The position numbers and the translations under genes are program-made. From contig CAJXMD010000013.1 of assembly GCA_913056165.1 (NCBI GenBank), positions 1 through 43,700 of the forward strand: a DNA stretch of 43,700 nt, written 5' to 3'. The notes under the pieces were generated by a model that saw only the letters and a program-made list of their open reading frames with translations, was not told the origin of the DNA and ran no database searches. Every line of letters begins with the position of its first letter. Positions within the stretch are counted from its first letter, which is position 1. This DNA comes from an uncultured Halieaceae bacterium (GTDB taxonomy: Bacteria > Pseudomonadota > Gammaproteobacteria > Pseudomonadales > Halieaceae). Below are positions 49-28,160 of the stretch, in pieces.

Positions 49-84
49 CACAAAAAAGGGACCCCATGGGGGCCCTTTTTTGTG
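49..84 (-). terminator. Strong, nearly symmetric hairpin terminator after mcr
   Basis: The stretch is an almost perfect inverted repeat. An A-rich arm plus GGG (51-60) pairs with CCC plus a T-run (73-81), around a short CCCC/GGGG core, with one mismatched pair. It starts 14 nt beyond the mcr stop codon in the direction of mcr transcription. Both strands end in a T-run, so it can act for a convergent gene left of the window as well. Only 48 bases lie to its left and no gene can be called there. Confidence 0.9.
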
Positions 85-97
85 TAGGTGATGGTGG

Positions 98-3000
98 TCA
101 TACGGTGACTGCATTGCCACGGAAGATCTTCGACAGGTACCGACTCTCTTTGGGCGATGGTGCGGGTACAGCACACTGCATGACTGCAGCCACCAGCCGT
201 TCCATTTCTTCAGACAGCTCCTGATCGTTCGAGGGTTCTTCAGTATGAGCACGTCTGGTGAGCTGCACCTGATTCACCGCGGGCACAGTGGGCAATCGCT
301 CGCCCTCTACGCCTAGGGTCACGGTGAAGGCGTGCAGAGAGTTCTTGACGAACAGCGCCAGTGCGAATTCCTCACGGGTGGACGCCAAAGAGGTGTCCGG
401 GGTGATGAGAACAATCTGACAGTTCGGCACCAGTGCTGCGATCCGGGCGCTGCGGAAATGGTGCGTCAGCTGATCGTTGACCAACTGACGGAACTGCTCA
501 TCGGAGAAAACCCGGTCCCAATTGCTGCCACGCTCTCCCGCAAGTGCATTCAGTGGCAGACGCTCGAATGGGCTGCTGACGACCACGTCAAAACCGCCGC
601 CGTTGCGCAATAGATCATCGAGTGCGCCCTCGATGTCATCGCCGATACAGCGGACCTCCACCTTGGTCGCTGACTCCGTATCGATCGAATGACACAGCGC
701 CTTAGCGGTGTCTTCGGTTTTGGTGAGTACCCAAAGCTGATCAACACCGTTTTTGGTAAAACCGTTGGCAATTTCGGTGATTTCAGGCTTCATGCCATCG
801 CCGATCAATACCACCCGCTTACCGTTCAACTTGGCCAGATCCTTCTCACTGGGTGAAAGTAATAGTTCGCCTTCCGTTACCGAGCGATCGAACTTCAAGC
901 CACCCGAGGGGTGAAAGGTCTCGCCGCTCACAATTTCATCGGCGAGGTGGAAGACGGTGGACAGGCCAACCTGTTCGTCGGTCGGCATCTTGTGCAGGTG
1001 TAGCCTGTTAAGAATGCCGGACTCGATTTGGGAGGCGGATTTCTTGCTTGCCTCTTTGTCGAAGAAGGGTGAGGGAGCATCCACGAATGAGCCGAGGAAT
1101 TCATCCTTGTCTTCTTCAGTGAAAATCCCCGCAAGGACAAGTCGCTCCACCAGTTTTACAGCCATTCCCATGTGCATCAGGCACTGGTTGGCACTGCCGG
1201 TGCCGCCCGATTCCTTGACCGTGCTGTAGAGCCGAGAGAGGGCTCGGGGAAGGTCTTTGGTAGGCAGTACGGCAAGGGCATTACCAGAAAGCTTTTTCAC
1301 ATCGTCCAGTGAATAACCGTCAGCTACCGCAGAGATAATGGCGGCGTGAACCTGGTTTAGTCGCTTGTTCTCCAGCACGAGGCGCCCTCGGCGATCGAAC
1401 AGCCCCGGTGCATCACCCAGGCCGCGGAGACGGGCGCCGTCGACCGGGCCCGGTGCCAAGGCATTAATCTGAATTTCCGGGCCGAGGTGCCGGGATAGAA
1501 TTTCAGCCAGCACTCGCTGTCCCGCTTTGGACACCGCATAGTCCGCTCGGTTGGGATAGGCAACGGCAACGTACTTTTCTCCCCCGAAATAACTTGAGAC
1601 GTTAAGGATCGACCCTTTCCCTCGATCTTTCATCAGCGGACCGAACTTGCGGATCAAGCTGTAGTTCGAGATCAGGTTGGCCTCCATAGTGCGGTTCCAA
1701 TCCTTCAAGGTCATATCTACAACCATTTCTTCGGCACCGGAGATACCGGCGTTATTGATCAGGAAGTCCACCTGACCGAAAAGATCGACTGCATGCTGAT
1801 GCAGAGTATCCAGTGCCTGTGGATCTCCCACATCGATATCAGCAAGGATATGAATGCGGGACTCCGGGTTGGGATAGCCTATTCCACGAAGCTCGTCTGC
1901 GATTTCCTGTCGCGCTTCAATCAGTTTGGCTTCGCTCCGGGCACTCAGCAGTACGCGGGCCCCGGCGATGGCAAGGTATCTACCCAACTGGAGACCGATG
2001 CCCAGGCTGCCGCCGGTGATCACTGCCGTCTTGCCTTTGTGCAGGCCTGGAAGCACCCGCATCAGAGACGTGGGCATGGCACCTTTACCAGTGGCGCGCT
2101 TGATGTCCTTTGGAATCCACAGGTTTATCGGGTCCATCTGGCGGACACGGTTGGTCAGGGTAGCCGCCCAGTCGGCTGCAAAGGGCAGTGCGTCCCGGTC
2201 TTCTGTGTCGTAACGAACCAGTTGATTAGGTTGAACAGCCCACTCCAGTTCACCCGCAGTTTTTAGGGTGTCGTCCTCGTGACGCCAGCCGCGAATTAAT
2301 GCTTCGTTCGAGGCGCGAATAACGTCATTGAGCAGGTTGCCGTGGGTATCGCTCGAATTGGTGACATAGGTGATCGCCGGCGGCTCGCACTTGCCAAACC
2401 AGCGGCTGAGATTGGTCGCCAACGTAGAAGCAAAAGCGACCGGCGCTACCACTTCATCCCGCACAAAATTCTCAACATCTTCATCGGTAGCTGTTGAAAT
2501 GGAGTAGCCGTAGTGTCCATTTTGCTTCTGCGGTAATACGATAACCCCGTCGAGTCGGCCAAAGTGGTCATCGATAAACTGCATGGTCCGGTCCATTGAC
2601 TCTCGGCGCAGTGGGTCTAGGTGCGAGAGTTGCACGTTATCCATTTCCTTTGCCTGGATAATGCTTCGCGCATGCCCAACAGCCTCGAGGTTACGGAAAG
2701 CGAGCAGCACTTGGGCGCCGCTTTCGGTGTGCCGCTGGGCGAAGGTCACGGCCTCGTTGTAATCAGCCCCGCCCAGTATCAATACAATGCTGCCGGTCAG
2801 GTCCTCGAGACGCTTGTCGGGCCATGACACTAACTGGGAGCGACTTTGTGCGGGTACCTGCATGCCATTGGTCACCTCAACGTGGTGGCCAGACAGTGCC
2901 GCAGATTCGTTAGAGGCAAGCCAGGTGATTGCCGATGCCACATCGTCGGGTGTGGGATAGCGGTAGGCCAAGCCATCCTCGCCGTCGCGAGTCGTGATCA

Positions 3001-3748
3001 TCAGATCCTTGAACTCTTTGCCGGTACTGCCAGGCTCGAGTCCCTGAAGTTCATCCATGCGAGCAAAGACGGTATCAATGCGCTCGGATTCAATTGGGCC
3101 CGGGAAAATGGTGTTCACGCGAATACCACGGTCCTCACCAAGTTCAAGTGCCAGACCTTTGGATAACGCATTGAGGCCAGACTTGGGCACTACATAGGGG
3201 ATACGGCCGTAATAGTGGGTGCGTGAAAAAATAGTAGAGACGTTAACAATAGATGCTCCGACGGACATATGAGGAGCGGCCGCTCGCGCCATGTTCCATG
3301 GGGCACCCAACAGGTTCATCGCGGAATCAAACATGGTTTGATCCGATTCGCTGGCTCGTTTTTCTGCTTCGGTAAACGGAATATCCCGAAGAGTAAACTT
3401 CGGCCCCGCAGCACCAGCATTGTTAACCAGTACGTCGATTGTGCCGAAGCTCTCAACAGTCTTGGCGACAATATCTCGGCATACCTGCGGATCCGCACAG
3501 TCACCGGCCATGGTTGCCATGCTGTCCCGATCAAAACCCTCGTTGCACAGGGTGTCAACAAAGGCGTCGAGCTTCTCGATATCTCGACCGGTCAGCATTA
3601 CGCGGGCGCCCTCGCGCAACAGCTGTCGCGTGATAAAGCTGCCAATGGAGCCCGCCGCACCTGTCAGCACGATTGACTTGGTGTCGAGTCGGCGTCCAGA
3701 ACGGGACTGGCTGATCATGTCATCGGTAAATTTAACGATCTCATTCAT
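98..3748 (-). CDS. mcr: Bifunctional malonyl-CoA reductase (NADPH)
   Basis: Reduces malonyl-CoA to malonate semialdehyde (C-terminal half in the Chloroflexus enzyme) and then to 3-hydroxypropionate (N-terminal half), using two NADPH. The 1216 residues match the Chloroflexus enzyme (about 1220). Four Rossmann/SDR segments are visible. SDR1 has TGAAGSIG near residue 30 and a Y-x3-K pair near 184/188. A degenerate segment (LILGGAD) lies near 320. A third has TGGSLGIG near 575 and Y-x3-K near 737/741. A degenerate fourth (VLIGDG) lies near 978. This is the SDR1-4 plan known for the family. The start codon overlaps the stop of pcs by 4 nt (ATGA at 3745-3748) and AGGAG lies just upstream, so translation is probably coupled. 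Family assignment is firm; its flux role in this host is inference. Confidence 0.93.
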   Translation of the reverse strand: MNEIVKFTDDMISQSRSGRRLDTKSIVLTGAAGSIGSFITRQLLREGARVMLTGRDIEKLDAFVDTLCNEGFDRDSMATMAGDCADPQVCRDIVAKTVESFGTIDVLVNNAGAAGPKFTLRDIPFTEAEKRASESDQTMFDSAMNLLGAPWNMARAAAPHMSVGASIVNVSTIFSRTHYYGRIPYVVPKSGLNALSKGLALELGEDRGIRVNTIFPGPIESERIDTVFARMDELQGLEPGSTGKEFKDLMITTRDGEDGLAYRYPTPDDVASAITWLASNESAALSGHHVEVTNGMQVPAQSRSQLVSWPDKRLEDLTGSIVLILGGADYNEAVTFAQRHTESGAQVLLAFRNLEAVGHARSIIQAKEMDNVQLSHLDPLRRESMDRTMQFIDDHFGRLDGVIVLPQKQNGHYGYSISTATDEDVENFVRDEVVAPVAFASTLATNLSRWFGKCEPPAITYVTNSSDTHGNLLNDVIRASNEALIRGWRHEDDTLKTAGELEWAVQPNQLVRYDTEDRDALPFAADWAATLTNRVRQMDPINLWIPKDIKRATGKGAMPTSLMRVLPGLHKGKTAVITGGSLGIGLQLGRYLAIAGARVLLSARSEAKLIEARQEIADELRGIGYPNPESRIHILADIDVGDPQALDTLHQHAVDLFGQVDFLINNAGISGAEEMVVDMTLKDWNRTMEANLISNYSLIRKFGPLMKDRGKGSILNVSSYFGGEKYVAVAYPNRADYAVSKAGQRVLAEILSRHLGPEIQINALAPGPVDGARLRGLGDAPGLFDRRGRLVLENKRLNQVHAAIISAVADGYSLDDVKKLSGNALAVLPTKDLPRALSRLYSTVKESGGTGSANQCLMHMGMAVKLVERLVLAGIFTEEDKDEFLGSFVDAPSPFFDKEASKKSASQIESGILNRLHLHKMPTDEQVGLSTVFHLADEIVSGETFHPSGGLKFDRSVTEGELLLSPSEKDLAKLNGKRVVLIGDGMKPEITEIANGFTKNGVDQLWVLTKTEDTAKALCHSIDTESATKVEVRCIGDDIEGALDDLLRNGGGFDVVVSSPFERLPLNALAGERGSNWDRVFSDEQFRQLVNDQLTHHFRSARIAALVPNCQIVLITPDTSLASTREEFALALFVKNSLHAFTVTLGVEGERLPTVPAVNQVQLTRRAHTEEPSNDQELSEEMERLVAAVMQCAVPAPSPKESRYLSKIFRGNAVTV

Positions 3749-6700
3749 CGGAGGGCTCCTGCTGAACCGGTATCAACTTGTGTTAGTTCTTCACCACGCT
3801 GTTGGGCATCACGAATGGCCCAGGCGCGATAGAGTTCTTCTTTCGATTTGAGGCCTGCACGGGGCAGGGCATGGATGGCAACGTAATTGGCACCTTGATG
3901 CCTGTTTTCCCACATTGCCTGGTGAGCTTCGGGGAGCTCCTCCATGGGAACGGGTGTTGGAGGCAGCACCGCGAGGAAGCCCGAGGCAATCTGCTCCTGC
4001 ATTTCCGCGAATTCCCGCGAGGTGTTGAGGTGTGTCCCGCGTATCTCCGCCGTCGGCATGATGATGCGACGTTGCCTTGTCCATACCTGAGGGGCGTAAA
4101 AGCTGAACCGGCATCCCTCGAGGTCCTCGGAGTACACCACGCGGCCAGTATTGGGTTTCACAAGCGCTGATGCCAGCGCGAGCCCATCACGACCCCGTCG
4201 CTCAAAGACCACATCGGGTAAGCCTCGCTTGTCCAGAGTGTTTCTAAGCGCCGGAGCAATCGCCGAGCCGATAGGCTTGAGAGTCTTGTCTGAGAACTCT
4301 CTCACGGCCTCGCGGAATGCGTCGGACTGAGTAAAGGGATCGGGCATGGCCGGGAAAGGTCCGGGAGCGACGAAATCGTCTCCCAGTCGTTTCGCGATCT
4401 CTTCGATGCTGACGACCCCTCGTACTCTGGGCCCAAAGCCTAGAGAGCTTACAAACTCTCGTTGAGCAATGGTGTCGACCAGCACCGCAACCTGACAGCC
4501 TTTCTGGCAGGCAACCTCGATCGCTTCGATCGCCACGTTGTCGACAATGCCGTCATCGGCACCGGGACCGTAGATGATCAGAACGGTTTTCCCCGCGCGC
4601 AAACCTGCTCGCTGGAACATTTTTGCGGGCGATGAAGCACCGCTCTTACCCATGAACGTGAACCGGTAGCCTGAGGACGCTCCGTAAAATGCCAGAACGC
4701 CATTATCCCCAAGCATCTGGAAGGTGCGTGGGAAGGCGTTTTCCCCAGCGTGACTCACCGCGTAATCAATGCTGCCGCCAACAGTCGCCTCGGCTGCTTT
4801 CACAAAGGGCAGGCCTTCGTCATGCCAGGACTTCCAAGCCGACGGGTCATCCGGAACTGCCGTAAAGATATGCTGCCATCGCTCGTCTTTTCGATTGATG
4901 GCTTGGCCGCCAGCGGCCTCCACTCGAGATGCTCGATCATCGCTGGATACCATTCCCAGACAACTCAAGGAGCTGGCAGTCGCACTGCGCAGGCAGTCAT
5001 AGCCCGTGCCGGTAGACGCTCCTTCCACAAATAAGCGTTTGCCGGGCTCGATATCCAGCGTGGTGAAGAGCGCCCGCTGAATGGTGCCCATGGTCAGACC
5101 ATAGGACCCAGCCTCCTCAAAGGTAAGAGAGCCCAGCTTTGGATGGAGCTGGGGTCCCTGAACTGTCAGAAATTGACCGTGGCTCCCATCGTTGCGCTCG
5201 TATCCCTGAATCCGGAAATCCGCGGCCATGGGATCCAATCCCTGATCGGGGGACAGCAATTCGCTCTGCCCTGAATAAATGGTCACGACATCCCCGACAG
5301 CCAGCCGCCCCTCGGAAACCAAGTCGGCGCCCAGCTGCACGACAAGGCCAACGCCGCCAGAGCCGGTCACCTGCACATCAGTTTCGCGGGCGTCAAAAGG
5401 TGATACGGGGATACCTGTCACCGCCCAGATGTCGTTGAAGTTGACCTCAGAAGCAAGCACGTAGACCAAGGCCTCAGCAGCACCCGGTGCGGGAGTCGGG
5501 AAGACAAGGCGCTTCTCGGCGATGGTCGGATCCCCGTGTTCCGGGGCACCATCTGCCTGAGATCGGGCGACGCCCCAACCGTATTGATAGGTGGGGATGC
5601 GGGTTACCCCGGGATAGAAACTGGTCCCCACTGGGAGCAACTCGCCAGATTCCAACAGGGAAGCTTCGAGAGCCTCGTCGGGGTAGGCAGGAACCTCACG
5701 AGGCTGACAGGGCAGCGGTGCGCTGCGCTTCTCGAGGAAAGCCAGAATTCCCGTCGGGCCGGAGGCGGGGTCGCAGACCGCATCTGCGAAGAGTCGGGCT
5801 TCCGCATCAAGACCCGCCGAGACACCTTGGTCGATACCTGTTTGTGTTGCTTCGAGAATGCGCTCAGCTACGTGGGTTCTGCCGCCCGCTCCTAGTTGGG
5901 AAAGCGCCACAGATACTTGAGAATGTTCAGCGAGAGGCGACTCCAGTTTTAAGGGCTGTTCGCGATCTGCAAGCAGGGCTGCATGCTCTGCCAGCACTGC
6001 GGATAGCGGGCTGCTCTCTTTGTTGTTGCTATCAAAATGGGTTCGCAGTCGGGCCATGGCTCGATCGACAGCGGACTCGGCACTCGTTGGTACCACCTCG
6101 TCAACAAGGCCTATCGCCGCAGCGTCGGAGGCGTCAATCGGGCGGCCGCGAAGCATAATGCCAAGGGCCTCCGCTGCGCCGTCAAAGCCTCGACGTTGAT
6201 GGAGCTTACGGGTCAATCGCTGGGTGCCGCCATAGCCGGGTAGCAAGTTGAGGTTGACCTCGGGCTGACCGAAGGTCGCATGATCTGCCGCGATCACGTA
6301 GGCACAGGACAAGAGAAGTTCATTACCACCACCCAGTGCAGGGCCGTTAATCGCGGCTACGACTGGGATAGACAGGCTCTCTATGGCCGAGAAGGCGGCC
6401 TGCGCGGCGTGGGGTGGGGTGAGCGCGGATTCACGGTCGCCTACTTCGCCTATTTTCAATAGTTCTTTGACATCTGCTCCCGCGACAAAGGTGTTCTTGT
6501 TACCGGTGATAACAAGGGCGTCAATGTGATCCTGATGCTTGATCTGGTGAATTACCGTGTGAAGCTCATCGAGCGCCCGCTCGTTTAGCGCGTTCACGGG
6601 TGGGTTGTTAATAAACAACAGCGCAACGGTGTGGCTCTCTGTCAGCCGGTGAACCTCAAGACGGATATAGCGCCAGGTTTGTACGATCTGGCGGGCTTGC

Positions 6701-9177
6701 GCGAGGGCGCCGTGATCGCGCCACTGGGATACGGCGTCGCGGATGACATCAACGACCTCCGGGTTTTTTAGCGTTGATAAATCCCCAAGCGGTGCATCAA
6801 GCAGCAGGGAGCGAAGTGTCCTGCGCATATATTTGCCCGAGCGTGTCTCAGGGAAGGCGGGCACAACAAGGAAATCTGAGGGCACCGCTGTTGCCCCCTT
6901 CTCGCTGCGAACAAGCCCCTGCAATCGCGCAAAATCGTCGTCAGTCAGCTTTCGCCCTGGCGCAGCAACGAGAAACGCGACCGGTGTTTCACCTTTTTCA
7001 TCGTGGGGCGCACCGACCACGACAACATTACCTAACGGTGAGTCCTCGCGCAGGGTCTTGTCACGGAGGATGGCTCCCTCGATTTCCTCGGTGCCTATGC
7101 GGTGACCCGAAACATTGATGACGTCATCGGAGCGACCATGCAAGGTGAATCCGCCGTCCTCGTGTTGCCGGGCGTAATCTCCCTGGGTATAGCTGTAGCC
7201 GGAGTCCCAGCGGTCGAAATAAACGGACTTAAACCGCTCGATGTCACCGCACCACTGGTTAGATCCAAAATTTTCCTTATCGCCCCACAGGGTGTGGGCG
7301 AGGTAAGGATAGGGCGCCGTAATCACCAGTTCTCCTTTTTCGCCAATCTCCGCAGGGCGCCAGGTAGAACCCCGGCCTTCGTCTCCAGCTGATTCGGCGA
7401 CGCGCACCTCCGCTTGTATCCAGGGAAGAGCCCAGGTTTTAGCATCGGGCTGAAGGTCTTTGTAGCCGCCCGCAGGGCATGAAAAAACGATGCCGCCATG
7501 CTCCGTTGCCCAGTATGAATTGATGTAGTGGCTGCAGATGTGGTCCATCGCAAATTGTTGAACAGCTGGCGACACCGGCTCCGCGCAAAAGGTACCCGCT
7601 CGTAGCGACGACATATCGTAGGCGGACATATCTCGCGTGCTCGCAGGGTCGGTCATGACAGCCTTGAGGAAGGTGGAGCCCGCTTTGAAAAGGGTGACAC
7701 CATGTCGCTCGATGGTAGATGCAAAGCGACCCGCGTGAGGGAATAGGGGGGATCCCTCGCAGACAACCGTGGTCATCCCCATAGAGAGGGGGGCGGCAAT
7801 AAGATAGGACTGTCCGGTTATCCAGCCGGGATCGCCAACCACATAGAGTGTGTCATCGGGGGTAGCGTTAAATACCGAGTGCATTGAGTGAGTAACACCG
7901 GCGAGCCAGGCGCCGTGCGTGTGAACGACTCCTTTGGGTTTGCCAGTAGAGCCTGAGGTATAGATGATGAAAAGAGGCCAGTTTGCCTCTACCGGAACGA
8001 CCGATTGCAGGCCATTAATGATTGACCAGTATTGCTGGTCCTCGAGGCCGTTAAGGGAATCAAAATCAGCAATCCCCAAATCTTGCAGGCAGTCGCTGGC
8101 GGCCTGTGCTACCAGGTCATCGGAGTAAACATCACGATCGTGTTCAATCACCTCCTGACCGGTATAGCGCGCTACCACAACCTTATCGATGGTATGACCC
8201 ACGCCCGCAAGAGCGATCGCAACCTGCGTTCGCAGTTTCGCACTAACCTCTGGATTCAGCCCTGTGCAGGTTGAAAGGGCTGCGCCCAGCTCACGCATAA
8301 TGTCCGCACGCTCTAGGGTAATCTCGCTTGCAACCGCGCCGGTAACGGTCGCGATAATATGATCTCGTTCCTCTATGTCCGGGTAATTGCCCAGCGTGTC
8401 CTCGAGGGCTTTGAGCCCAGCTTCCCGTGGGACGTAGTTATCGAGCGCGGGGTCAGTGTATTGACTCTTGAAGGCTACCGCCTCGGCATTTCGGAAGCCT
8501 CCATCTGCAGTGATAACAAGCTTGGCACCTGCATCGTGGAGACGGTCAGACAAAGTCTTTGCTGAAAAGCCACCAAAGACGGGGGTGTAAAGAATGCCGA
8601 GTCGCTGAGCAGCCAGAATATAAAAAATCTGTTCGGGAATATTGGGCATGTTCAGCGCAATACGATCCCCGGTGCGCAGGCCGAGGTTATTGAGCACACG
8701 AGCGCGCAGCGTAACTTCGAGAAGTAGCTGGCGGTAGGTGAAGTGCTGTTCTGTTACCGGGCCTCCTCGGCCAGCATTTTTGGCCGGGTCCCAGCGATCG
8801 CCCTCAAAGATAAGCGCCTTGTTGTGGCCCTGACCCTGAAGAATATGTCGGTCGAGGAGATTAAAGCAGGCGTTCGTATTGGCGCCAACGAACCAACGGA
8901 GATAAGGACTCTGGCTATCATCCAATACTTGCTTCCACAGATCCTTGTCGTCTGCCTTGGTTGAGGTGACAGACTCGCCCGAGTAAGCAGCGTAGCCAAC
9001 CCACTGCTGACTGGCGAGATCAAAGCTGATCCATTGATCTGCCGACTCGTCAAACCAGTGGAGATTTCTGCGGGCAACGTCGCCGTAAAAATTTTCAGGC
9101 GTCTCGTTGATCAAACGGCGGAGGGAGTCCTCCCCCGCCTGTGAGCAAAGCTGCTCCCAAGCTATCCCAACAGTCAT
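3745..9177 (-). CDS. pcs: Propionyl-CoA synthase (trifunctional fusion)
   Basis: Converts 3-hydroxypropionate, CoA, ATP and NADPH to propionyl-CoA inside one polypeptide, keeping the reactive acrylyl-CoA enclosed. The 1810 residues match the family (about 1820). Domain 1 is an acyl-CoA synthetase: P-loop YTSGSTGKPKG near 405-415, YWATEHGG, and the adenylation lysine in SGKYMRR near 781. Domain 2 is an enoyl-CoA hydratase/crotonase with oxyanion segment VAGADVKEL and both catalytic glutamates, in GGGNELLLSC near 953 and QPEVNL near 973. Domain 3, from about 1226, is an MDR enoyl-CoA reductase resembling crotonyl-CoA carboxylase/reductase, with GASTGTGYD near 1390. All three active sites appear intact. 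GGAG sits 10 nt before the ATG. It is the first gene of the pcs-mcr pair. Confidence 0.95.
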   Translation of the reverse strand: MTVGIAWEQLCSQAGEDSLRRLINETPENFYGDVARRNLHWFDESADQWISFDLASQQWVGYAAYSGESVTSTKADDKDLWKQVLDDSQSPYLRWFVGANTNACFNLLDRHILQGQGHNKALIFEGDRWDPAKNAGRGGPVTEQHFTYRQLLLEVTLRARVLNNLGLRTGDRIALNMPNIPEQIFYILAAQRLGILYTPVFGGFSAKTLSDRLHDAGAKLVITADGGFRNAEAVAFKSQYTDPALDNYVPREAGLKALEDTLGNYPDIEERDHIIATVTGAVASEITLERADIMRELGAALSTCTGLNPEVSAKLRTQVAIALAGVGHTIDKVVVARYTGQEVIEHDRDVYSDDLVAQAASDCLQDLGIADFDSLNGLEDQQYWSIINGLQSVVPVEANWPLFIIYTSGSTGKPKGVVHTHGAWLAGVTHSMHSVFNATPDDTLYVVGDPGWITGQSYLIAAPLSMGMTTVVCEGSPLFPHAGRFASTIERHGVTLFKAGSTFLKAVMTDPASTRDMSAYDMSSLRAGTFCAEPVSPAVQQFAMDHICSHYINSYWATEHGGIVFSCPAGGYKDLQPDAKTWALPWIQAEVRVAESAGDEGRGSTWRPAEIGEKGELVITAPYPYLAHTLWGDKENFGSNQWCGDIERFKSVYFDRWDSGYSYTQGDYARQHEDGGFTLHGRSDDVINVSGHRIGTEEIEGAILRDKTLREDSPLGNVVVVGAPHDEKGETPVAFLVAAPGRKLTDDDFARLQGLVRSEKGATAVPSDFLVVPAFPETRSGKYMRRTLRSLLLDAPLGDLSTLKNPEVVDVIRDAVSQWRDHGALAQARQIVQTWRYIRLEVHRLTESHTVALLFINNPPVNALNERALDELHTVIHQIKHQDHIDALVITGNKNTFVAGADVKELLKIGEVGDRESALTPPHAAQAAFSAIESLSIPVVAAINGPALGGGNELLLSCAYVIAADHATFGQPEVNLNLLPGYGGTQRLTRKLHQRRGFDGAAEALGIMLRGRPIDASDAAAIGLVDEVVPTSAESAVDRAMARLRTHFDSNNKESSPLSAVLAEHAALLADREQPLKLESPLAEHSQVSVALSQLGAGGRTHVAERILEATQTGIDQGVSAGLDAEARLFADAVCDPASGPTGILAFLEKRSAPLPCQPREVPAYPDEALEASLLESGELLPVGTSFYPGVTRIPTYQYGWGVARSQADGAPEHGDPTIAEKRLVFPTPAPGAAEALVYVLASEVNFNDIWAVTGIPVSPFDARETDVQVTGSGGVGLVVQLGADLVSEGRLAVGDVVTIYSGQSELLSPDQGLDPMAADFRIQGYERNDGSHGQFLTVQGPQLHPKLGSLTFEEAGSYGLTMGTIQRALFTTLDIEPGKRLFVEGASTGTGYDCLRSATASSLSCLGMVSSDDRASRVEAAGGQAINRKDERWQHIFTAVPDDPSAWKSWHDEGLPFVKAAEATVGGSIDYAVSHAGENAFPRTFQMLGDNGVLAFYGASSGYRFTFMGKSGASSPAKMFQRAGLRAGKTVLIIYGPGADDGIVDNVAIEAIEVACQKGCQVAVLVDTIAQREFVSSLGFGPRVRGVVSIEEIAKRLGDDFVAPGPFPAMPDPFTQSDAFREAVREFSDKTLKPIGSAIAPALRNTLDKRGLPDVVFERRGRDGLALASALVKPNTGRVVYSEDLEGCRFSFYAPQVWTRQRRIIMPTAEIRGTHLNTSREFAEMQEQIASGFLAVLPPTPVPMEELPEAHQAMWENRHQGANYVAIHALPRAGLKSKEELYRAWAIRDAQQRGEELTQVDTGSAGALR

Positions 9178-9664
9178 AGTGTTTTGCTCCAGCCAAGGCG
9201 GTGTGCAACGCCTTTTCTTGCAGTCTGCGACATCGCCGTCGGGTCGCCTGCCATCATTTATAGTGTGAACTTCCGTTTGATCTGGCTTAGCCGGAGAGAC
9301 TCCGGGGGTGCTGTAAACACAGCGGTCAAACCAGATTGTTCAGGTTACGAACAGCCTACCCAGTTGGATTAAAAAAACTGGCACTATTGCAGGTGTGAAA
9401 GCGGGGTAGAGGAGGGCTAGCAGTTGAAGCCCAGCACGATCTCACTGTTTTTACTGTCGTAAGCACCACGTTTCCAGCTTTTAGCGACTTTTTGGGTGAA
9501 AACCCTGCTAATAGGGCGCAAAATACGCCAAGTTCTGAAAAAAGGGTGGTTTTGGCACAGCTCTCAAGGTTTCACGGGTTGATCGGTGGTTAAAACCTCC
9601 GTGGTCTGCTTACCACAACGCAGAGAATCGGGTACCTTGATCACAACCTTAAACCGAGGAGTAC
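9178..9664. other. Intergenic region between divergent pcs and cyclase gene, rich in inverted repeats
   Basis: No convincing gene was found in these 487 bases. The half next to pcs has two short perfect palindromes: CCGGAG-AGA-CTCCGG at 9291-9305 and GCTGT-AAAC-ACAGC at 9310-9323. Both are enclosed by ATCTGG (9280-9285) and CCAGAT (9331-9336). The half next to the cyclase gene has a GGGT-GAAA-ACCC hairpin at 9494-9505. It overlaps alternative pairings CCCT/AGGG (9503-9516) and GGCG/CGCC (9515-9529). These look like operator or leader-RNA elements, but nothing matches a regulator or riboswitch class I recognise. Confidence 0.6.
9257..9285 (-). promoter_or_regulatory. Candidate pcs-mcr promoter with poor -35
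   Basis: On the minus strand TATAAA at 9262-9257 is a good -10 hexamer about 80 nt before the pcs start. The -35 position (9285-9280, CCAGAT) is poor, which would fit an activator-dependent promoter. The palindromes at 9291-9305 and 9310-9323 would then lie just upstream, where an activator could bind. Inferred from sequence only. Confidence 0.35.
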
Positions 9665-20485: not shown

Positions 20486-21400
20486 GTGAAGGTCATGGTT
20501 CTGGGTTCAGCCGCGGGGGGCGGTTTTCCACAGTGGAATTGTAATTGCAACAACTGTTGCGGGGTGAGGTCAGGCTCGCTTGACGCGATCCCGCGAACCC
20601 AGTCATCAATCGCTGTGTCGGTAGATGGCGAGCGATGGATACTCCTTAATGCGTCTCCCGATATTCGCTCGCAACTCGAGGCCAACCCTCCCTTACAACC
20701 AAAAAGGGGACGTCGGGATACCGGTGTTCATGGGGTCGTGCTGGCGGACAGCCAAATTGATCATACGACAGGCCTGCTCTTTCTGCGCGAGGGGTGCCCA
20801 CTACGGGTCTATTGCACCGATATGGTGGCTCAGGACCTTAGTACGGGTTTTCCAATCTTTGTAATGTTGCAGAGTTGGGACGGCGGAGTGATACACACGA
20901 CCGTTCCCATTGATGGAAGCGCTTTTCAGGTGAGCGATATCGAAGAAATTTCGATCACTGCGATTCCGTTGGATGGTAAAGCGCCGCCTTATTCGCCACA
21001 CCGGCATGACCCCCACGTCGGTGACAATGTAGGCTATTTGATTGAGGATACTCGTTCGCAGGCGTCCTTGTTCTACGCCCCTGGTTTGGGCCAAATGTCC
21101 TCAGCGCTGTTAGACATGATGGGCGGGGCCGATTGCGTCATGGTCGATGGTACTTTTTGGTCTGAGGACGAAATGCAGCGGGCCGGAGTCGGTACCAAGC
21201 TTGCCAGTGACATGGGGCATTTGCCCCAGAGTGGCGATGAAGGCATGTTGCACTGGCTGTCAAAAATCCCGGGTCCACGCAAGATTCTCATTCACATCAA
21301 CAACACCAACCCGATCCTGATCGAGAACTCACCGGAGCGGAAGCTGGTGGAGGAGAGCGGCGTGGAAGTGGCCTATGACGGGATGGCTTTCGATCTCTAG
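20486..21400 (+). CDS. pqqB: PqqB, metallo-beta-lactamase-fold PQQ biosynthesis protein
   Basis: The 304 residues match the family. The N-terminus carries [15 protein letters not shown] and the cysteine cluster C19-x-C21-x2-C24, the zinc-site signature of PqqB. Later segments [28 protein letters not shown] and HINNTNPIL also fit. PqqB acts after PqqE and is proposed to hydroxylate the tyrosine-derived ring before PqqC closes PQQ. GTG 20486 is chosen because it gives the family start ([12 protein letters not shown]) and follows GGGGAGAG. pqqC, pqqD and pqqE do not follow; the next gene is an acyl-CoA dehydrogenase 156 nt away. Confidence 0.96.
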
Positions 21401-21457
21401 GCTGTTAATTCATTGGTGAATTGCGCCCCTCTAGCCTATTAGGACCCACGAACATAC

Positions 21458-21486
21458 TTGAAAGTAAAGAAAACATACGCTAAGTT
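21458..21486 (+). promoter_or_regulatory. Candidate promoter of the acyl-CoA operon
   Basis: TTGAAA (21458-21463) and TAAGTT (21481-21486) are 17 nt apart, about 70 nt before the acyl-CoA dehydrogenase start. A small inverted repeat (ATTCA/TGAAT) follows pqqB, but it has no T-run, so some readthrough from pqqB remains possible. Confidence 0.35.
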
Positions 21487-21556
21487 CAAATTTGAGATGG
21501 CCCTCTGCCAAAAGCGTTCTTTCCCAGCTGTGTCTCTGTCTAAAAGGTAAACCACA

Positions 21557-22813
21557 ATGGATTTAGGTATATCTGACCGCGTTGCCCCGCTTCTCGAGCA
21601 GGTGCGCAATTACATTACTGAGCATGTCATCCCGGTTGAGCATGAATTTTTTGATGAAATTCGCAAAGGAAGCCCCTGGGAATTTACAGACAGGCAGACT
21701 GAAATATTGGAACAGATCAAGGCTGGGGCTCGAGAGCGTGGCCTGTGGAACTTCTTTCTGACCGGTGACGGCGCACACGGATCAGGTTTGAATACGGTTG
21801 AGTATGCCTACCTGGCGGAGGAGATGGGTAAATGCCATCTTGGTGCCGAGGTTTTCAACTGTTCCGCACCGGACACTGGCAACATGGAAGTTCTGCACAA
21901 ATACGGTAGCGAGGCCCAAAAGAAGCAGTGGCTAGAGCCCTTGATGCGGGGCGAAATTCGCTCCTGCTTCGGGATGACCGAGCCCGGGGTGGCTTCATCT
22001 GATGCAACCAACATTTCGACTCGGGCGGTGCTCGAAGGCGATGAGTGGGTCATCAACGGAGAGAAACACTGGATCTCAGGAGCCGGGGACCCCCGCTGCA
22101 AGATCATGATTTGCATGGTCAAAACCAGTCCGGACGCTCCCAAACATCAGCAGCAGTCACAGATTTTGGTGCCCTTGGATTCGCCTGGCCTTGAGATTCT
22201 TCGGCATCTCACGGTCTTCAACATGGACGATGCGCCCCACGGGCACATGCACCTGAAGTTGAATAACGTGCGGGTTCCGAAAGACAACATCATTTTGGGA
22301 GAGGGCAGAGGCTTCGAGATCTCACAGGGCCGATTAGGCCCCGGCCGAATTCATCACTGTATGCGGTCTATCGGTGCAGCGGAACGGGCACTGCAACTCC
22401 TGTGCGAGCGAGCGACAGGACGAGAAGCTTTTGGAAAACCACTGGCGAGACTCGGGGGCAATATCGACATTATTGCCGATGCACGCATGAACATTGAACA
22501 GGCACGCTTGCTGACTCTGAAAACCGCATGGATGATGGATAATGTCGACGCCAAAGAAGCGCGCATCTGGATTTCGATGATCAAGACGGTGGTGCCCAAT
22601 ATGACGCTGAAGGTGGTTGATGAAGCCATTCAGATGCATGGTGGCATTGGTATTTCGCAAGACACACCGCTCGCTGCGATATGGTCCGGTCAGCGCACCT
22701 TGCGACTGGCTGATGGCCCTGATGCAGTCCACCGCATGGTGGTCGGGCGCCATGAGTTGAAAAAATATATTGCCAGCTCGGGTGATGCTCCTGCGACCTT
22801 TAGAGATGGTTGA
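21557..22813 (+). CDS. Acyl-CoA dehydrogenase (ACAD10/11-like)
   Basis: A flavoprotein that oxidises acyl-CoA to 2-enoyl-CoA, the first beta-oxidation step, passing electrons to ETF. The 418 residues cover the three ACAD domains. FAD-binding segments CFGMTEPGVASSDATN and VINGEKHWISGAGD are clear, as is the C-terminal MHGGIGISQDTPLA. The ending LRLADGPDAVH is that of the ACAD10/11 group, in place of the short-chain-type YEGTSQI. That group handles long or branched acyl-CoAs, so chain length is uncertain. It has an AAAGG ribosome binding site and is the first gene of the seven-gene operon. Confidence 0.92.
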   Translation: MDLGISDRVAPLLEQVRNYITEHVIPVEHEFFDEIRKGSPWEFTDRQTEILEQIKAGARERGLWNFFLTGDGAHGSGLNTVEYAYLAEEMGKCHLGAEVFNCSAPDTGNMEVLHKYGSEAQKKQWLEPLMRGEIRSCFGMTEPGVASSDATNISTRAVLEGDEWVINGEKHWISGAGDPRCKIMICMVKTSPDAPKHQQQSQILVPLDSPGLEILRHLTVFNMDDAPHGHMHLKLNNVRVPKDNIILGEGRGFEISQGRLGPGRIHHCMRSIGAAERALQLLCERATGREAFGKPLARLGGNIDIIADARMNIEQARLLTLKTAWMMDNVDAKEARIWISMIKTVVPNMTLKVVDEAIQMHGGIGISQDTPLAAIWSGQRTLRLADGPDAVHRMVVGRHELKKYIASSGDAPATFRDG

Positions 22814-22933
22814 TGAGAAACGGCTCAGGCCAACCGCGCCAGTGCAGTGTTATTGCTATCGATCTAGGTAGCCTCCTGAAACTCAATCTGGCGCCAACTT
22901 GCTGCGCCGCCAAGGATAAAAAAGGAAGATACG

Positions 22934-23398
22934 ATGACGACACAAACCGTTACCCCGGACGAACTGAAGGCTATGGCGGGCACCAAAGTCGGCACCAGTG
23001 ATTGGATGACGCTTGATCAGCAGCGAATTAACGAGTTTGCCGACTGTACTGAGGACCATCAATTTATTCACATCGATCAGGAAGCGGCCGCAAAGACGCC
23101 GTTTGGCGGCACGATCGCTCATGGGTTTTTGACGCTGTCCATGCTGGTGAAGTTGTGTGAGAGCGTGTCTGTCTATCCTGAGGGCTTGATGATGGGGGTG
23201 AATTACGGCCTGAACAAAGTGCGGTTTCTCGCTCCGGTACCTGCGGGTGGTCGTGTGCGGGCTCATGTGGAACTGGCCAGCGTGGACCAGAAAGACGCCA
23301 ATCGGTTTTTGGTTCAGCAAAACATCACGGTGGAGATAGAGGGCACTGACACCCCCGCGCTCTATGCCGAGTGGATCAACATGTTCTTTATTGCCTAA
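22934..23398 (+). CDS. MaoC-family (R)-specific enoyl-CoA hydratase
   Basis: A hot-dog-fold hydratase of 154 residues that adds water to 2-enoyl-CoA to give (R)-3-hydroxyacyl-CoA. The catalytic pair D37-x4-H42 is present in ADCTEDHQFIHID, followed by PFGGTIAHGFLTLS, the standard hydratase-2 motif. AAGGAAG precedes the ATG. The (R) stereochemistry, if correct, matches the following SDR of the HSD17B4 type. The 120 nt before it hold no supported gene. Confidence 0.92.
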   Translation: MTTQTVTPDELKAMAGTKVGTSDWMTLDQQRINEFADCTEDHQFIHIDQEAAAKTPFGGTIAHGFLTLSMLVKLCESVSVYPEGLMMGVNYGLNKVRFLAPVPAGGRVRAHVELASVDQKDANRFLVQQNITVEIEGTDTPALYAEWINMFFIA

Positions 23399-23422
23399 TC
23401 TTTTTATTTTTCGGAGAAAGCT

Positions 23423-24343
23423 ATGACGATTCGTTACGACGGCAAGGTCGCAATCGTGACCGGTGCAGGAGGAGGTCTTGGCCGTAGCCATGCCATTGAG
23501 CTGGCCAAGCGGGGCGCCAAGGTGGTGGTGAACGACCTTGGAGGCTCGGTCAGTGGTGAAGGTCAAAACAGTGAGGCGGCGCTCGCCGTTGTCGCTGAAA
23601 TCGAAGCATTGGGTGGTGAGGCGATGGCCCACCCCGCCAATGTCGCGGTGATGGAGCAAGTTGAGGATATGGTCTCTCAGACGATGAGCGCCTGGGGTCG
23701 TATCGACATTCTCGTCAATAACGCGGGCATTCTTCGCGACAAAAGTTTTATCAAGATGGAAATGGCTGACTTTAAGTTGGTGCTGGATGTCCACTTGATG
23801 GGCAGCGTTAATTGCACCAAAGCCGTCTGGGAAATCATGAAGAACCAGGAGTACGGTCGCATTGTGATGACCTCGTCCTCCAGTGGTCTCTATGGAAACT
23901 TCGGTCAGAGCAATTATGGCGCCGCCAAGCTCGGCGTGGTTGGCTTTATGAACACGCTGGCCCAAGAAGGTGCCAAATACAACATCCGCGTGAATGCTCT
24001 CGCACCAACAGCAGGTACTCGCATGACCGAGGGGTTGATGTCAGAGCAGGCGTTCAATCTGTTGACTCCCGAGACTGTAACCCCGGCGGTGCTTTACCTG
24101 GTTGCCGAGGACGCCCCGACCCACACGATTTTGGCCGCGGGAGCTGGCGCCTACGCGGTGGCAAAGATTGTGGAAACCGAATCCGTTTGGCTGCCAGAGG
24201 GGGAGCAGACCCCCGAGGGCATCGCGGCCCATTGGGATCAAATTGCAAATGGTCAGGAGACCCAGCTCAAAGCTGGCTTTGAACAAACGTTCCGGATGGT
24301 CGGGAAAGCGGCTGAGGGTCTTGGCATAAAGCTGGAAGGATGA
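23423..24343 (+). CDS. SDR-family 3-hydroxyacyl-CoA dehydrogenase (HSD17B4-like)
   Basis: The 306 residues resemble the dehydrogenase domain of peroxisomal multifunctional enzyme 2, which oxidises (R)-3-hydroxyacyl-CoA to 3-ketoacyl-CoA with NAD. The cofactor motif TGAGGGLG lies at residues 13-20, NNAG near 94, serines before GLYGNFGQSNYG, and the catalytic Y165-x3-K169. The extended C-terminal part after residue 220 is typical of this subgroup. Spacing from the hydratase is 24 nt with GGAG in between. Confidence 0.92.
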   Translation: MTIRYDGKVAIVTGAGGGLGRSHAIELAKRGAKVVVNDLGGSVSGEGQNSEAALAVVAEIEALGGEAMAHPANVAVMEQVEDMVSQTMSAWGRIDILVNNAGILRDKSFIKMEMADFKLVLDVHLMGSVNCTKAVWEIMKNQEYGRIVMTSSSSGLYGNFGQSNYGAAKLGVVGFMNTLAQEGAKYNIRVNALAPTAGTRMTEGLMSEQAFNLLTPETVTPAVLYLVAEDAPTHTILAAGAGAYAVAKIVETESVWLPEGEQTPEGIAAHWDQIANGQETQLKAGFEQTFRMVGKAAEGLGIKLEG

Positions 24344-24409
24344 CGCCCGCGAAAGCAAGCCAGGACCGAAACACCACGCACCAAATCAAACAGGTTAAGG
24401 ATAGAAATT

Positions 24410-25588
24410 ATGCGAGAAGCAGTGATCGTCTCAACAGCAAGGACACCAATTGGCAAGGCCTATCGCGGTGGGTTTAACAACACGGCGTCACCGACCCTCG
24501 GTGGCCATGCGGTGGCGGCGGCGGTTGAGCGAGCCGGCATCGAAGGTGACCGCGTTGATGACTGCATCATCGGCAGCGCGATGCCCCAGGGCACTCAATC
24601 GCTTAATCTGGGTCGAAACGTTGCGCTCCGTGGGGGACTGCCCGTGTCGGTGGCTGGTATGACGATTGATCGGCAGTGCTCATCCGGTTTGATGGCGGTG
24701 GCGACTGCAGCGAAGCAGGTTCTTCATGACGGCATGGAGGTGGTCGTAGGTGGCGGCCTTGAATCGATTTCCCTCGTGCAAAACGAGCACATGAATATGC
24801 ACCGTTTGGTGGATGAGGAATTAGTGGCGATGCACAAGGACATCTATATGCCGATGTTGCAAACGGCTGAGGTGGTCGCCAAACGTTACAACATCGCCCG
24901 GGATGTCATGGATGAATATGGGTTGCAGTCACAGCAGCGCGTTGCGGCGGCTTACGAGGCTGGCAAATATGTCGATGAAATCATCCCGGTCACAACCACT
25001 CGCATCGTATGGGACAAGGAAACCGGTGAGGCATCGGAAGCAGAGGTGACGGTGTCAGCCGATGAAGGGGTACGGGCTTCAACCCTCGAGGGTGTTCAGG
25101 GGCTCAAAACGGTTGTCGAGGGCGGAACCATCACTGCAGGTAACGCATCACAGCTCTCTGATGGTGCTTCTGCGCAGGTGGTTATGGAAGCCAAGCTTGC
25201 CGAGCAGCTTGGCCTCGAACCGCTCGGAGCATACCGCGGAATTGCCGTCGCCGGATGCGAACCCGATGAAATGGGGATTGGTCCGGTCTTCGCTGTGCCA
25301 AAGTTGCTCAAGCAACACGGCCTCTCGGTTGATGATATTGGTCTATGGGAGCTGAATGAGGCGTTTGCTGTGCAGGTGCTCTACTGTCGCGATCAACTGG
25401 GCATCGACAACGATAAACTGAATGTGAATGGCGGTGCGATTGCGGTGGGTCATCCCTATGGCATGAGCGGCTCCCGTATGATTGGACACGCCCTGCTTGA
25501 GGGTAAGCGTAGAGGCGTGAAGTATGTTGTGATCACCATGTGCGTCGGTGGTGGTCAGGGTGCCGCCGGCTTATTCGAGGTTTTTTAA
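24410..25588 (+). CDS. Acetyl-CoA acyltransferase (thiolase)
   Basis: Cleaves 3-ketoacyl-CoA with CoA, releasing acetyl-CoA, or propionyl-CoA from 2-methyl substrates. The 392 residues match the degradative thiolase family. The nucleophile C90 is in [11 protein letters not shown]348 in [10 protein letters not shown] and C378 in [13 protein letters not shown], so the active site is complete. TAAGGATAGAA precedes the start. Its stop is followed after one base by the next gene. Confidence 0.95.
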
Positions 25589-25589
25589 C

Positions 25590-26570
25590 ATGACACGAGC
25601 ACTCGTCTGCAGGGAGCATGGTCTTCCCGATACTCTTGATCTTACCGCCGACTGGGCTGTTCCTGATTTGGGCCCGAATGATGTCCTCGTCGCCACTAAA
25701 GCGGCGGGACTCAACTTTCCTGACGTGCTTATTATTCAGGGCAAGTATCAGTTTCAGCCCGATCTACCCTTTGTGCCCGGCGGCGAGAGTGCCGGAGTGG
25801 TCGAAGCGGTGGGCTCTGAGGTCACGCGCTGGAAGGTGGGTGATGAGGTCCTTCAGATGGGCGGTTCGGGGGCGTTCAGCGCCCAGATCGTGGTCAACGA
25901 GCATGCGCTTCTGCCCAAACCCAAGGCGCTTTCCATGATCGAAGCGGCGGGCATTGGCATTACATACTTTACGTCCTATCACGCGCTTGTTCAGCGGGCG
26001 AATATTCAACCCGGAGAGACGCTACTGGTCCTCGGTGCTGCGGGCGGCGTGGGTAGTACCGCGGTAGAGCTCGGCAAGGCGCTGGGAGCGAAAGTCATCG
26101 CGGCAGCGAGTAGTGATGACAAACTGGAGCTCTGTCGGCAGCTGGGCGCTGACGAGGTGATTAACTATGCCACCGAGGATTTAAAGGCTCGTGTCAAAGA
26201 GCTGACTGGCGGTCGCGGTGTCGATGTCGTCTACGATCCGGTGGGCGGTGATTTTAGTGAGGCCGCCGTCCGCAGTATGGCGTGGCAGGGGCGCTTTCTG
26301 GTTGTAGGTTTTGCCAGCGGGCCGATTCCAAGCATCCCTCTCAATCTCACCCTGCTCAAAGGATGTCAGATAGTGGGTGTGTTCTGGGGCCGATTCGTTG
26401 GCGAAGAGCCCGAGGTTCACCAGCAGAATATTGCGACCTTGTGGGAGTGGTTTGATGCGGGGAAGATCAAGCCCGTCGTCACCGACGTGTTCCCCATAGA
26501 GGAATATGAGGCGGGTTACGCCGCGATGATTGAGCGCCGCGCGAAAGGAAAGGTTATTTTTACGTTCTAG
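25590..26570 (+). CDS. NADPH:quinone oxidoreductase-like MDR enzyme
   Basis: A medium-chain dehydrogenase/reductase of 326 residues from ATG 25590, which lies one base past the thiolase stop; a longer frame from 25548 would overlap thiolase. The N-terminal GroES-like part contains AAGLNFPDVLIIQGKYQ, and the Rossmann motif GAAGGVGSTAVELGKALGAKV lies near 145-165. The zinc-ligand cysteines of alcohol dehydrogenases are absent, which fits the quinone oxidoreductase/enoyl reductase branch. It may reduce an unsaturated intermediate with NADPH; the real substrate is unknown. Confidence 0.88.
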   Translation: MTRALVCREHGLPDTLDLTADWAVPDLGPNDVLVATKAAGLNFPDVLIIQGKYQFQPDLPFVPGGESAGVVEAVGSEVTRWKVGDEVLQMGGSGAFSAQIVVNEHALLPKPKALSMIEAAGIGITYFTSYHALVQRANIQPGETLLVLGAAGGVGSTAVELGKALGAKVIAAASSDDKLELCRQLGADEVINYATEDLKARVKELTGGRGVDVVYDPVGGDFSEAAVRSMAWQGRFLVVGFASGPIPSIPLNLTLLKGCQIVGVFWGRFVGEEPEVHQQNIATLWEWFDAGKIKPVVTDVFPIEEYEAGYAAMIERRAKGKVIFTF

Positions 26571-26571
26571 C

Positions 26572-27720: not shown

Positions 27721-28160
27721 TGTCCCGGATGGCTCCAGAGAGTAGATCAGGTTTTTCTGTTTTTTATGTCGTGCCAACCCGATGGGCGGATAACGACATC
27801 TATGGTCATGCCAATAACGTGGTGTACTACGCGTGGTTCGATACGGTGGTTAATCGATTCCTCATTGAGGAGGCAGGCATGCGGCCAGGGGTAGATAAGG
27901 TGGTTGGTTATGTCGTGTCCTCCGGCTGCGAGTATTTTGCTCCCGTCAGCTATCCGGAGGAACTGGAGTTAGGACTTCGCGTGGTGAGACTTGGTAGCAA
28001 ATCCGTGACCTGGGAAATTGGCGTTTTTCCGGGGTCTGGAGATCAAACTGCCGCGCTGGGACGCTTCACTCACGCCTTCGTTAATCGCGATACCGGCAGC
28101 TCTGCGGAGATCCCGGTTACCATTCGTCGCGCTATCGAGGCATTGCCGTCGGTCTCCTAA
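27720..28160 (+). CDS. 4HBT-type acyl-CoA thioesterase
   Basis: A hot-dog-fold protein of 146 residues with the 4-hydroxybenzoyl-CoA thioesterase signature TRWADNDIYGHANNVVYYAWFD, including the catalytic aspartate in ADNDIYGH. The ATG shares its A with the stop codon of the alcohol dehydrogenase gene (TAATG), so translation is coupled. It probably releases CoA from a pathway intermediate or from dead-end acyl-CoAs. It is the last gene of the operon and converges on the MFS gene 42 nt away. No strong terminator is seen between them. Confidence 0.9.
   Translation: MSRMAPESRSGFSVFYVVPTRWADNDIYGHANNVVYYAWFDTVVNRFLIEEAGMRPGVDKVVGYVVSSGCEYFAPVSYPEELELGLRVVRLGSKSVTWEIGVFPGSGDQTAALGRFTHAFVNRDTGSSAEIPVTIRRAIEALPSVS

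Follow-up and report, generated by a model that had tools for sequence, protein, structure and literature searches.

The window analysed here, a stretch of 43,700 nucleotides that begins at the end of contig C13 in the draft genome of an uncultured Halieaceae bacterium, carries neighbouring genes for a malonyl-CoA reductase (MCR) and a propionyl-CoA synthase (PCS), the two enzymes of the first half of the Chloroflexus 3-hydroxypropionate (3HP) bi-cycle. What does such a pair do in a marine gammaproteobacterium? The initial annotation suggested that it may be a stand-alone route from malonyl-CoA to propionyl-CoA and guessed at a use as an electron sink, in lipid supply or in light-aided carbon assimilation. 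From the sequence evidence set out below, the pair probably turns malonyl-CoA into propionyl-CoA at the expense of energy and reducing power, and the reading that we favour, and hold to be fairly likely, is that it forms half of a bi-cycle used for reductive CO2 co-assimilation in photoheterotrophs.

Structure of the gene pair

The two genes are neighbours on the minus strand, with pcs first and its end overlapping the start of mcr by 4 nt, and their G+C content (0.56-0.58) resembles that of the rest of the window (0.55). The features of the pair are as follows.

59..80, minus strand: intrinsic terminator-like hairpin and T-run directly 3' of mcr (stem 75-59, 7 pairs, 6 of them GC, then CTTTTTT)
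98..3748, minus strand: mcr, bifunctional malonyl-CoA reductase, 1216 aa (open reading frame, two short-chain dehydrogenase/reductase (SDR) stretches, solved relatives)
1409..2053, minus strand: C-terminal SDR half of MCR, residues ~566-780, with Tyr737/Lys741
2852..3691, minus strand: N-terminal SDR half of MCR, residues ~20-299, with Tyr185/Lys189
3745..9177, minus strand: pcs, trifunctional propionyl-CoA synthase, 1810 aa (open reading frame, full-length alignment)
3808..5538, minus strand: acrylyl-CoA reductase domain of PCS, kin of crotonyl-CoA carboxylase/reductase, residues ~1214-1790
5956..6642, minus strand: enoyl-CoA hydratase-type dehydratase domain of PCS, residues ~846-1074, with Glu953 and Glu973
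6730..8937, minus strand: CoA-ligase domain of PCS, residues ~81-816, with Lys782 and AMP-binding loop 406-416
9178..9664, no strand assigned: intergenic region between pcs and a divergent putative cyclase gene, likely to hold the pcs-mcr promoter

Each half of MCR has a Gly-rich loop and a Pfam short-chain dehydrogenase stretch, and the protein aligns over its length with two solved chains (residues 18-1216 with 8hi4, 993 bits; residues 20-1216 with 8hjw, 960 bits), which are titled only as SDR proteins and which we take to be MCRs. With two Gly-rich SDR halves, a Tyr-x3-Lys motif in each and a full-length solved match, it is by its sequence a bifunctional MCR of the bacterial SDR type. If the assignment of the halves in the MCR literature holds here, as we assume, the C-terminal half would reduce malonyl-CoA to malonate semialdehyde and the N-terminal half would reduce the latter to 3HP. 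PCS carries the Pfam AMP-binding, enoyl-CoA hydratase and zinc-type dehydrogenase domains, and the solved structure 6eqo aligns with its residues 19-1790 (1821 bits), the reductase domain being covered through residue 1790. This entry is titled acetyl-CoA synthetase and is presumably the PCS of Erythrobacter NAP1; Glu953 and Glu973 are identical in it. The predicted product is thus a trifunctional PCS, in which ligase, hydratase and reductase are fused and the key Lys and both Glu are kept. We take the identities of the catalytic residues in both enzymes from family knowledge, and none of these residues, the loss of which had been named beforehand as telling against the pair, is lost as far as the alignment shows.

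A scan for terminators found 11 hairpin/T-runs in 10 kb against 8.2 in shuffled sequence, which by itself is no proof; no stem among the 11 is longer or richer in G+C than that of the hairpin after mcr, and its position is that of an operon end. Open reading frames, alignments to 6eqo, 8hi4 and 8hjw, and the hairpin at 59-75 all agree with the full-length enzymes, 4-nt overlap and terminator first described for the locus. The window opens at one end of its contig, and the region past the terminator lies outside it.

The host and its photosynthesis genes

The contig belongs to a 2.43 Mb draft genome, 86.7% complete, which falls in the marine genus Luminiphilus and is related to the marine gammaproteobacterium HTCC2080, which we believe is already known to carry pcs and mcr. 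The window's PCS is 92% identical to that of an uncultured Luminiphilus and ~82% identical to that of HTCC2080. Matches at E <= 1e-100 were found in 27 of 36 genomes of the same genus and in the window's own, and in 29 of the 58 genomes searched overall, including one match of 47% in another family.

The same genome encodes pufL and pufM on contig C33, flanked by pufC, PucC and bacteriochlorophyll (bch) genes of the CobN/BchH, frxC/NifH and nitrogenase types, so that pcs-mcr and puf stand on different contigs. Within the genus, 44 of 57 genomes have reaction-centre genes, as do all 17 with low contamination and a completeness of 90% or more. By gene content the host is an aerobic anoxygenic phototroph, in which the pair and a type II reaction centre are found together, as a half bi-cycle in a photoheterotroph would have it.

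Distribution of PCS and reaction centres

The link between PCS and phototrophy can be examined in families that hold many non-phototrophs. Two family samples, of genomes with at least 90% completeness, were drawn around G109, an Erythrobacter, and G086, Pseudohaliea rubra, and we read their names, Sphingomonadaceae (the Erythrobacter family) and Halieaceae, from these centre genomes. Among the 347 genomes of the first, a reaction centre is over the cut-off in 69 (a weaker match in G239 being excluded) and PCS is present in 33, all of them within the 69 and none among the 278 genomes without a reaction centre (Fisher p 3e-27, which, like the value that follows, ignores kinship and serves as a scale only). 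MCR adjoins PCS in all 30 loci that were fetched from these 33 genomes. The 78 Halieaceae comprise 25 with a reaction centre and 22 with PCS, 21 having both (Fisher p 5e-14), and just 1 of the 53 without a reaction centre has PCS (G486; a 48% identical protein with no MCR beside it). Four reaction-centre Halieaceae received no PCS call (G496, G497, G518 and G519); in G519, whose puf coordinates match those of G003, a fragmentary PCS was dropped by the threshold, and counting it would give 22 of 25.

A broader view comes from the best 80 of 281 PCS-encoding stretches, a set that leans to window-like PCS. Reaction centres were sought in 50 of the 80; of the 30 dropped by choice, 19 came from the Luminiphilus/Halieaceae part of the tree and the remainder were Chloroflexota (including Roseiflexus, L112), Sphingomonadales and one Rhodopila. 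Reaction-centre genes were found in 40 of the 50, and these include, by their record titles, Halieaceae, other Gammaproteobacteria, a betaproteobacterium, Sphingomonadales, Rhodopila, Gemmatimonadota, a Longimicrobiales draft, a Myxococcota draft and Chloroflexota. Where mcr was scored at the locus, a reaction centre was present in 33 of 35 cases. Seven PCS genomes that have no reaction centre also have no MCR beside PCS (L099, L103, L105, L106, L107, L109 and L114).

This split between paired and lone PCS recurs in the PCS tree (FastTree, 84 rows). Clade I, with 32 rows, holds the Halieaceae together with Lysobacterales, Woeseiaceae, Longimicrobiales and Myxococcota drafts, and clade II, with 43 rows, holds Chloroflexota, Alphaproteobacteria, Gemmatimonadota and others. 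For PCS, the comparison with Chloroflexus and Erythrobacter homologues that had been proposed at the outset places the window's protein in clade I and the Chloroflexota and Erythrobacter-type proteins in clade II. Lone PCS forms a clade of 8 rows (Azospirillum, others, plus G057 and G486), no reaction-centre genes being found in the 7 members tested, which are all but G057, and Sulfobacillus sits on a long branch. Taken together, the nesting of PCS within reaction-centre genomes suggests use of CO2 beside organic food in the light, and with the photosynthesis gene cluster of the host it strongly backs the light link that the initial annotation had guessed at. We found no report of this nesting in the literature searched, which reached few subscription papers.

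Pathway genes and the entry substrate

The proposed role would need a supply of malonyl-CoA and an outlet for propionyl-CoA. A search of the genome for the carboxylase and mutase genes, suggested earlier, found accD on C3 and, on C22, an operon with a carboxyltransferase, a biotin carboxylase with carrier domain, mce (methylmalonyl-CoA epimerase), mcm (methylmalonyl-CoA mutase) and meaB in one row; judged from gene position, the carboxylase pair is likely a propionyl-CoA carboxylase. The pair therefore appears to have both a supply and an exit to succinyl-CoA and, setting aside accA, accB and accC, the route from acetyl-CoA through malonyl-CoA, 3HP and propionyl-CoA to succinyl-CoA is predicted to be encoded. 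All 10 genomes searched have mutase-family matches. Among the annotated genes of the window we noticed none for a carboxylase, lyase or CoA-transferase of the bi-cycle, as had been stated, and several are present elsewhere in the genome. The description of the pair as stand-alone thus holds with respect to the rest of the Chloroflexus bi-cycle, the HpcH/HpaI family being absent from the near-complete sisters G005, G016 and G027, and fails with respect to succinyl-CoA, to which accD and the C22 operon offer an exit. The host also has an isocitrate lyase (1040 bits against a cut-off of 446; family present in 10 of 10 genomes searched), and on this ground we rejected replacement of the glyoxylate shunt in acetate assimilation as the sole role of the pair.

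Gene order in relatives bears on the substrate. Of the 28 clade-II loci that extend 1 kb or more past mcr, 14 have accA adjoining mcr, of which 13 have the order pcs-mcr-accA and Roseiflexus has accA-mcr-pcs; L082 is a further case, cut by the contig end. Since the product of accA is part of acetyl-CoA carboxylase, the source of malonyl-CoA, this arrangement argues that malonyl-CoA would be the entry substrate, and against salvage of 3HP as the main role.

The proposed route and the points against it

If the pair works as we propose, acetyl-CoA carboxylase would make malonyl-CoA, MCR would reduce this to 3HP with 2 NADPH, and PCS would convert 3HP to propionyl-CoA using ATP and 1 NADPH, after which propionyl-CoA carboxylase, epimerase and mutase would lead to succinyl-CoA. 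The net reaction of such a route is acetyl-CoA + 2 CO2 to succinyl-CoA, at a cost of 3 NADPH and ~4 ATP equivalents. In the light, photophosphorylation would supply ATP and spare respiration, and the route could refill the tricarboxylic acid cycle, absorb excess reductant and fix CO2 next to organic carbon. A further proposal, in which our doubt slightly outweighs our confidence, is that pcs-mcr is a light-powered accessory cassette restricted to phototrophy and kept only with a reaction centre, its carriers being anoxygenic phototrophs from four phyla or more (Pseudomonadota, Gemmatimonadota, Myxococcota and Chloroflexota), sometimes near photosynthesis genes and often far from them, with lone PCS as a light-independent salvage enzyme. 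The pair itself is already known in phototrophs of this kind.

Several observations weigh against co-assimilation of CO2 in the light as the role of the pair. PCS is lacking in 36 of the 69 reaction-centre genomes of the Erythrobacter family, and among the 21 Halieaceae that have a reaction centre as well as PCS, 15 belong to the window's own genus and 6 lie outside it, a kinship for which the counts are uncorrected. Of the 15 tested loci scored without mcr, 7 come from genomes that do have a reaction centre (these loci being at contig ends or in Chloroflexota), and three drafts without a reaction-centre match have a PCS of the paired type: L053 and L072 with full mcr, and L046, in which mcr runs off the contig end and which was scored without mcr with the remaining piece under the threshold. 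In the phototrophic Halieaceae genome G475 (L215, a 4.35 Mb contig), the 3.9 kb that follow a clade-I PCS hold no MCR, which may be encoded elsewhere. All but one of the 14 accA cases, 13 in number, lie in or beside one Sphingomonadales-centred part of the PCS tree and so represent few independent events, and accA stands beside mcr in none of the 18 loci of clade I, the clade of the window's PCS. With isocitrate lyase present, the pair is not the sole route of acetate assimilation; no PpsR-type TGT-N12-ACA site lies in 9178-9664 upstream of pcs; and part of the co-occurrence of pcs and reaction centres may be co-inheritance, as discussed below. Flux through the route, its direction and its light dependence in the Luminiphilus host are things that we infer from the genes described.

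Alternative explanations

Salvage, in which PCS would use 3HP from the breakdown of dimethylsulfoniopropionate (DMSP), acrylate, beta-alanine or uracil and MCR would be accessory or run in reverse, is in our view unlikely. Luminiphilus is a predicted DMSP degrader, and DddD cleavage of DMSP gives 3HP-CoA (PMC13310141), and PCS without MCR in a clade without reaction centres (Azospirillum, others) fits salvage there; yet salvage requires neither MCR nor light, whereas pcs and mcr stay paired and PCS tracks reaction centres, and accA beside mcr in 14 loci points to malonyl-CoA. Rather improbable, too, is co-inheritance without a functional tie to light, by which the pair would travel with or near photosynthesis genes and do an ordinary anaplerotic or redox job. 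Both pcs and puf stand on one contig in 17 of the 54 genomes of the two family samples that have both genes, at a spacing of 34-77 kb in 5, 122-128 kb in 2 and 216 kb to 2.4 Mb in 10. The five close cases (G118 C11, G255, G381, G323 and G217) are near enough to suggest a shared region, and pcs and puf may therefore have moved together in part of the set. PCS and PufM distances are weakly correlated (Spearman 0.31 over 39 genomes, with 0 of 500 shuffles as high), and the trees agree only loosely; the clade-I rows as one group in the PufM tree were not rejected (p-AU 0.07), and a PCS tree constrained to keep the 34 non-Chloroflexota rows as one group was uninformative, any single outgroup clade satisfying the constraint. 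Co-transfer with the photosynthesis cluster is thus neither shown nor excluded. Against co-inheritance as the whole explanation, most of the 17 have pcs and puf far apart, more than 200 kb in 10, and still retain both, and the nesting repeats across two families and several phyla. Supply of propionyl-CoA for odd-chain or methyl-branched lipids or for polyester is chemically possible, but the genome has a dedicated operon towards succinyl-CoA and the light link would be left unexplained, and we can give it hardly any credence.

Two complete autotrophic cycles have also to be considered. Operation of the whole 3HP bi-cycle as in Chloroflexus is highly improbable. The first-half genes are present, and within ~11 kb of contig C5 lie a lyase of the CitE/HpcH family, a MaoC hydratase of half length and an unassigned family III CoA-transferase, the last two being all that was seen on C5 for the mesaconyl-CoA transferase and the 2-methylfumaryl-CoA and mesaconyl-C4-CoA hydratases. 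Members of the HpcH/HpaI family, which includes malyl-CoA lyase, have some match in 7 of 10 genomes searched and two in the host, one on C5 and one on C3. However, the family has no match in the near-complete, PCS-bearing G005, G016 and G027, so that the complete bi-cycle is not needed for the pair, and the search for malyl-CoA lyase recommended in the initial annotation accordingly had a mixed outcome: nothing in these sisters, and two family members in the host. The CitE-like C5 lyase falls below every NCBIfam cut-off and far under those of malyl-CoA lyase, citE and Ccl, and the C5 hydratase fits itaconyl-CoA hydratase (209 bits) better than 2-methylfumaryl-CoA hydratase (97 bits), both below cut-off. 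This lyase stands in an operon with an HpaB-family protein and MmgE/PrpD, upstream of which is another gene that by eye resembles GntR; the operon is divergent from the itaconyl-CoA-hydratase-like MaoC and an acyl-CoA-dehydrogenase-like gene, and these C5 genes (L288:10866-17448) may serve the breakdown of a branched dicarboxylic acid. A component of the 3-hydroxypropionate/4-hydroxybutyrate (3HP/4HB) cycle is a very unlikely role as well. Its key enzyme, 4-hydroxybutyryl-CoA dehydratase, belongs to the HpaB family, which is over the cut-off in 26 of 63 genomes searched, the window's included. Aligned with the solved 1u8v and 6vjr as positive controls, the protein from the window's genome has C, Y, H and A at the cluster-ligand positions (C103 to Y, C299 to A), where we assume that three Cys and one His would hold the [4Fe-4S] cluster. 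This variant, in the operon with the CitE-like lyase and MmgE/PrpD, is common to the window's genome, 12 sisters including HTCC2080 (G015, 99% complete) and one Lysobacterales draft, and is the sole over-cut-off HpaB-family protein in the window's genome and the 12 sisters; a further 3 of the 23 genus genomes searched (G017, G034 and G077) have no over-cut-off match. In favour of the cycle, seven other members of the genus keep all four ligands, and all its enzymes are reported as present in eight Luminiphilus metagenome-assembled genomes (PMC9802188). The four-ligand form is otherwise found in two phototrophic Halieaceae without PCS (G496 and G497) and in 1 of 34 PCS-bearing genomes searched outside the genus (G260, Erythrobacter family), whilst distant matches in Sulfobacillus and Chloroflexus fit neither ligand pattern. 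Judged from these ligands, the published claim would fail for the window's part of the genus and may stand for another part. Candidates for a four-ligand dehydratase are at L261, L262, L263, L265, L281, L282, L283, L259, L260 and L272.

Relation to known systems

The half bi-cycle that we prefer shares with the Chloroflexus pathway the same two enzymes, their domain order and their proposed reactions, and Chloroflexota PCS falls in the same family tree; it differs in the tight pcs-mcr operon, in the lack of a second-half lyase in near-complete sisters, and in that a closed cycle there is set against an anaplerotic half-cycle here. Nearer in lifestyle are the partial 3HP pathways of Erythrobacter NAP1, named as bearing 3HP enzymes, and Porphyrobacter ULC335, which share the key 3HP enzymes and for which co-assimilation of CO2 has likewise been suggested (PMC10674011). 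Erythrobacter-type PCS belongs to the other deep clade, in which accA by mcr is frequent, whereas it was not seen in the window's clade. The same source describes 3HP-bicycle genes in Porphyrobacter ULC335 (the exact genes being in its supplement) as up by day and down by night, and its authors propose that CO2 is co-assimilated with organic substrates (PMC10674011). By analogy, this day/night pattern may be taken as the nearest experimental support for a role in the light. With the 3HP/4HB proposal for Luminiphilus (PMC9802188), our genome has in common the genus and the presence of MCR, PCS, carboxylase and mutase, and it differs in that a dehydratase with all its cluster ligands was found neither in it nor in 12 sisters. 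Lone PCS (Azospirillum, Sulfobacillus, G486 and others) is the same trifunctional enzyme at ~45-50% identity, but it lacks a neighbouring MCR, none of the 8 genomes tested (7 of the clade and Sulfobacillus) has a reaction centre and, for all but Sulfobacillus, it forms a separate clade. No paper on PCS in Congregibacter, or on 3HP in HTCC2080 or Halieaceae phototrophs, was found in the literature searched.

Our analysis adds the nesting of PCS in two families with many non-phototrophs, its division into paired and lone forms, the position of accA beside mcr, and the test of the dehydratase ligands. PCS, present in 33 of 69 and 21 of 25 phototrophs of the two family samples, would offer a sharp, testable marker for light-driven CO2 co-assimilation, with which to address how far CO2 is fixed by aerobic anoxygenic phototrophs, a group abundant in sunlit water, and the ligand test would correct the claim of an archaeal-type autotrophic cycle for the window's part of Luminiphilus.

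Further observations

PpsR-type control of pcs-mcr was considered and rejected, the window having 8 TGT-N12-ACA sites against 7.9 expected. In L060 (15391-15740) the match to mcr starts only at residue 141 with pcs otherwise intact, which suggests a frameshift or an assembly error. The Longimicrobiales draft G083, the genome of L052, has two different pufLM sets on two contigs, which would mean that the genes are duplicated or that the bin is mixed. Elsewhere in the window, at 20486-28160 on the plus strand, genes for a metallo-hydrolase, an acyl-CoA dehydrogenase, an SDR, a thiolase, a quinone oxidoreductase-like protein, an iron alcohol dehydrogenase and a thioesterase form a run that looks like an acyl-CoA catabolic cluster.

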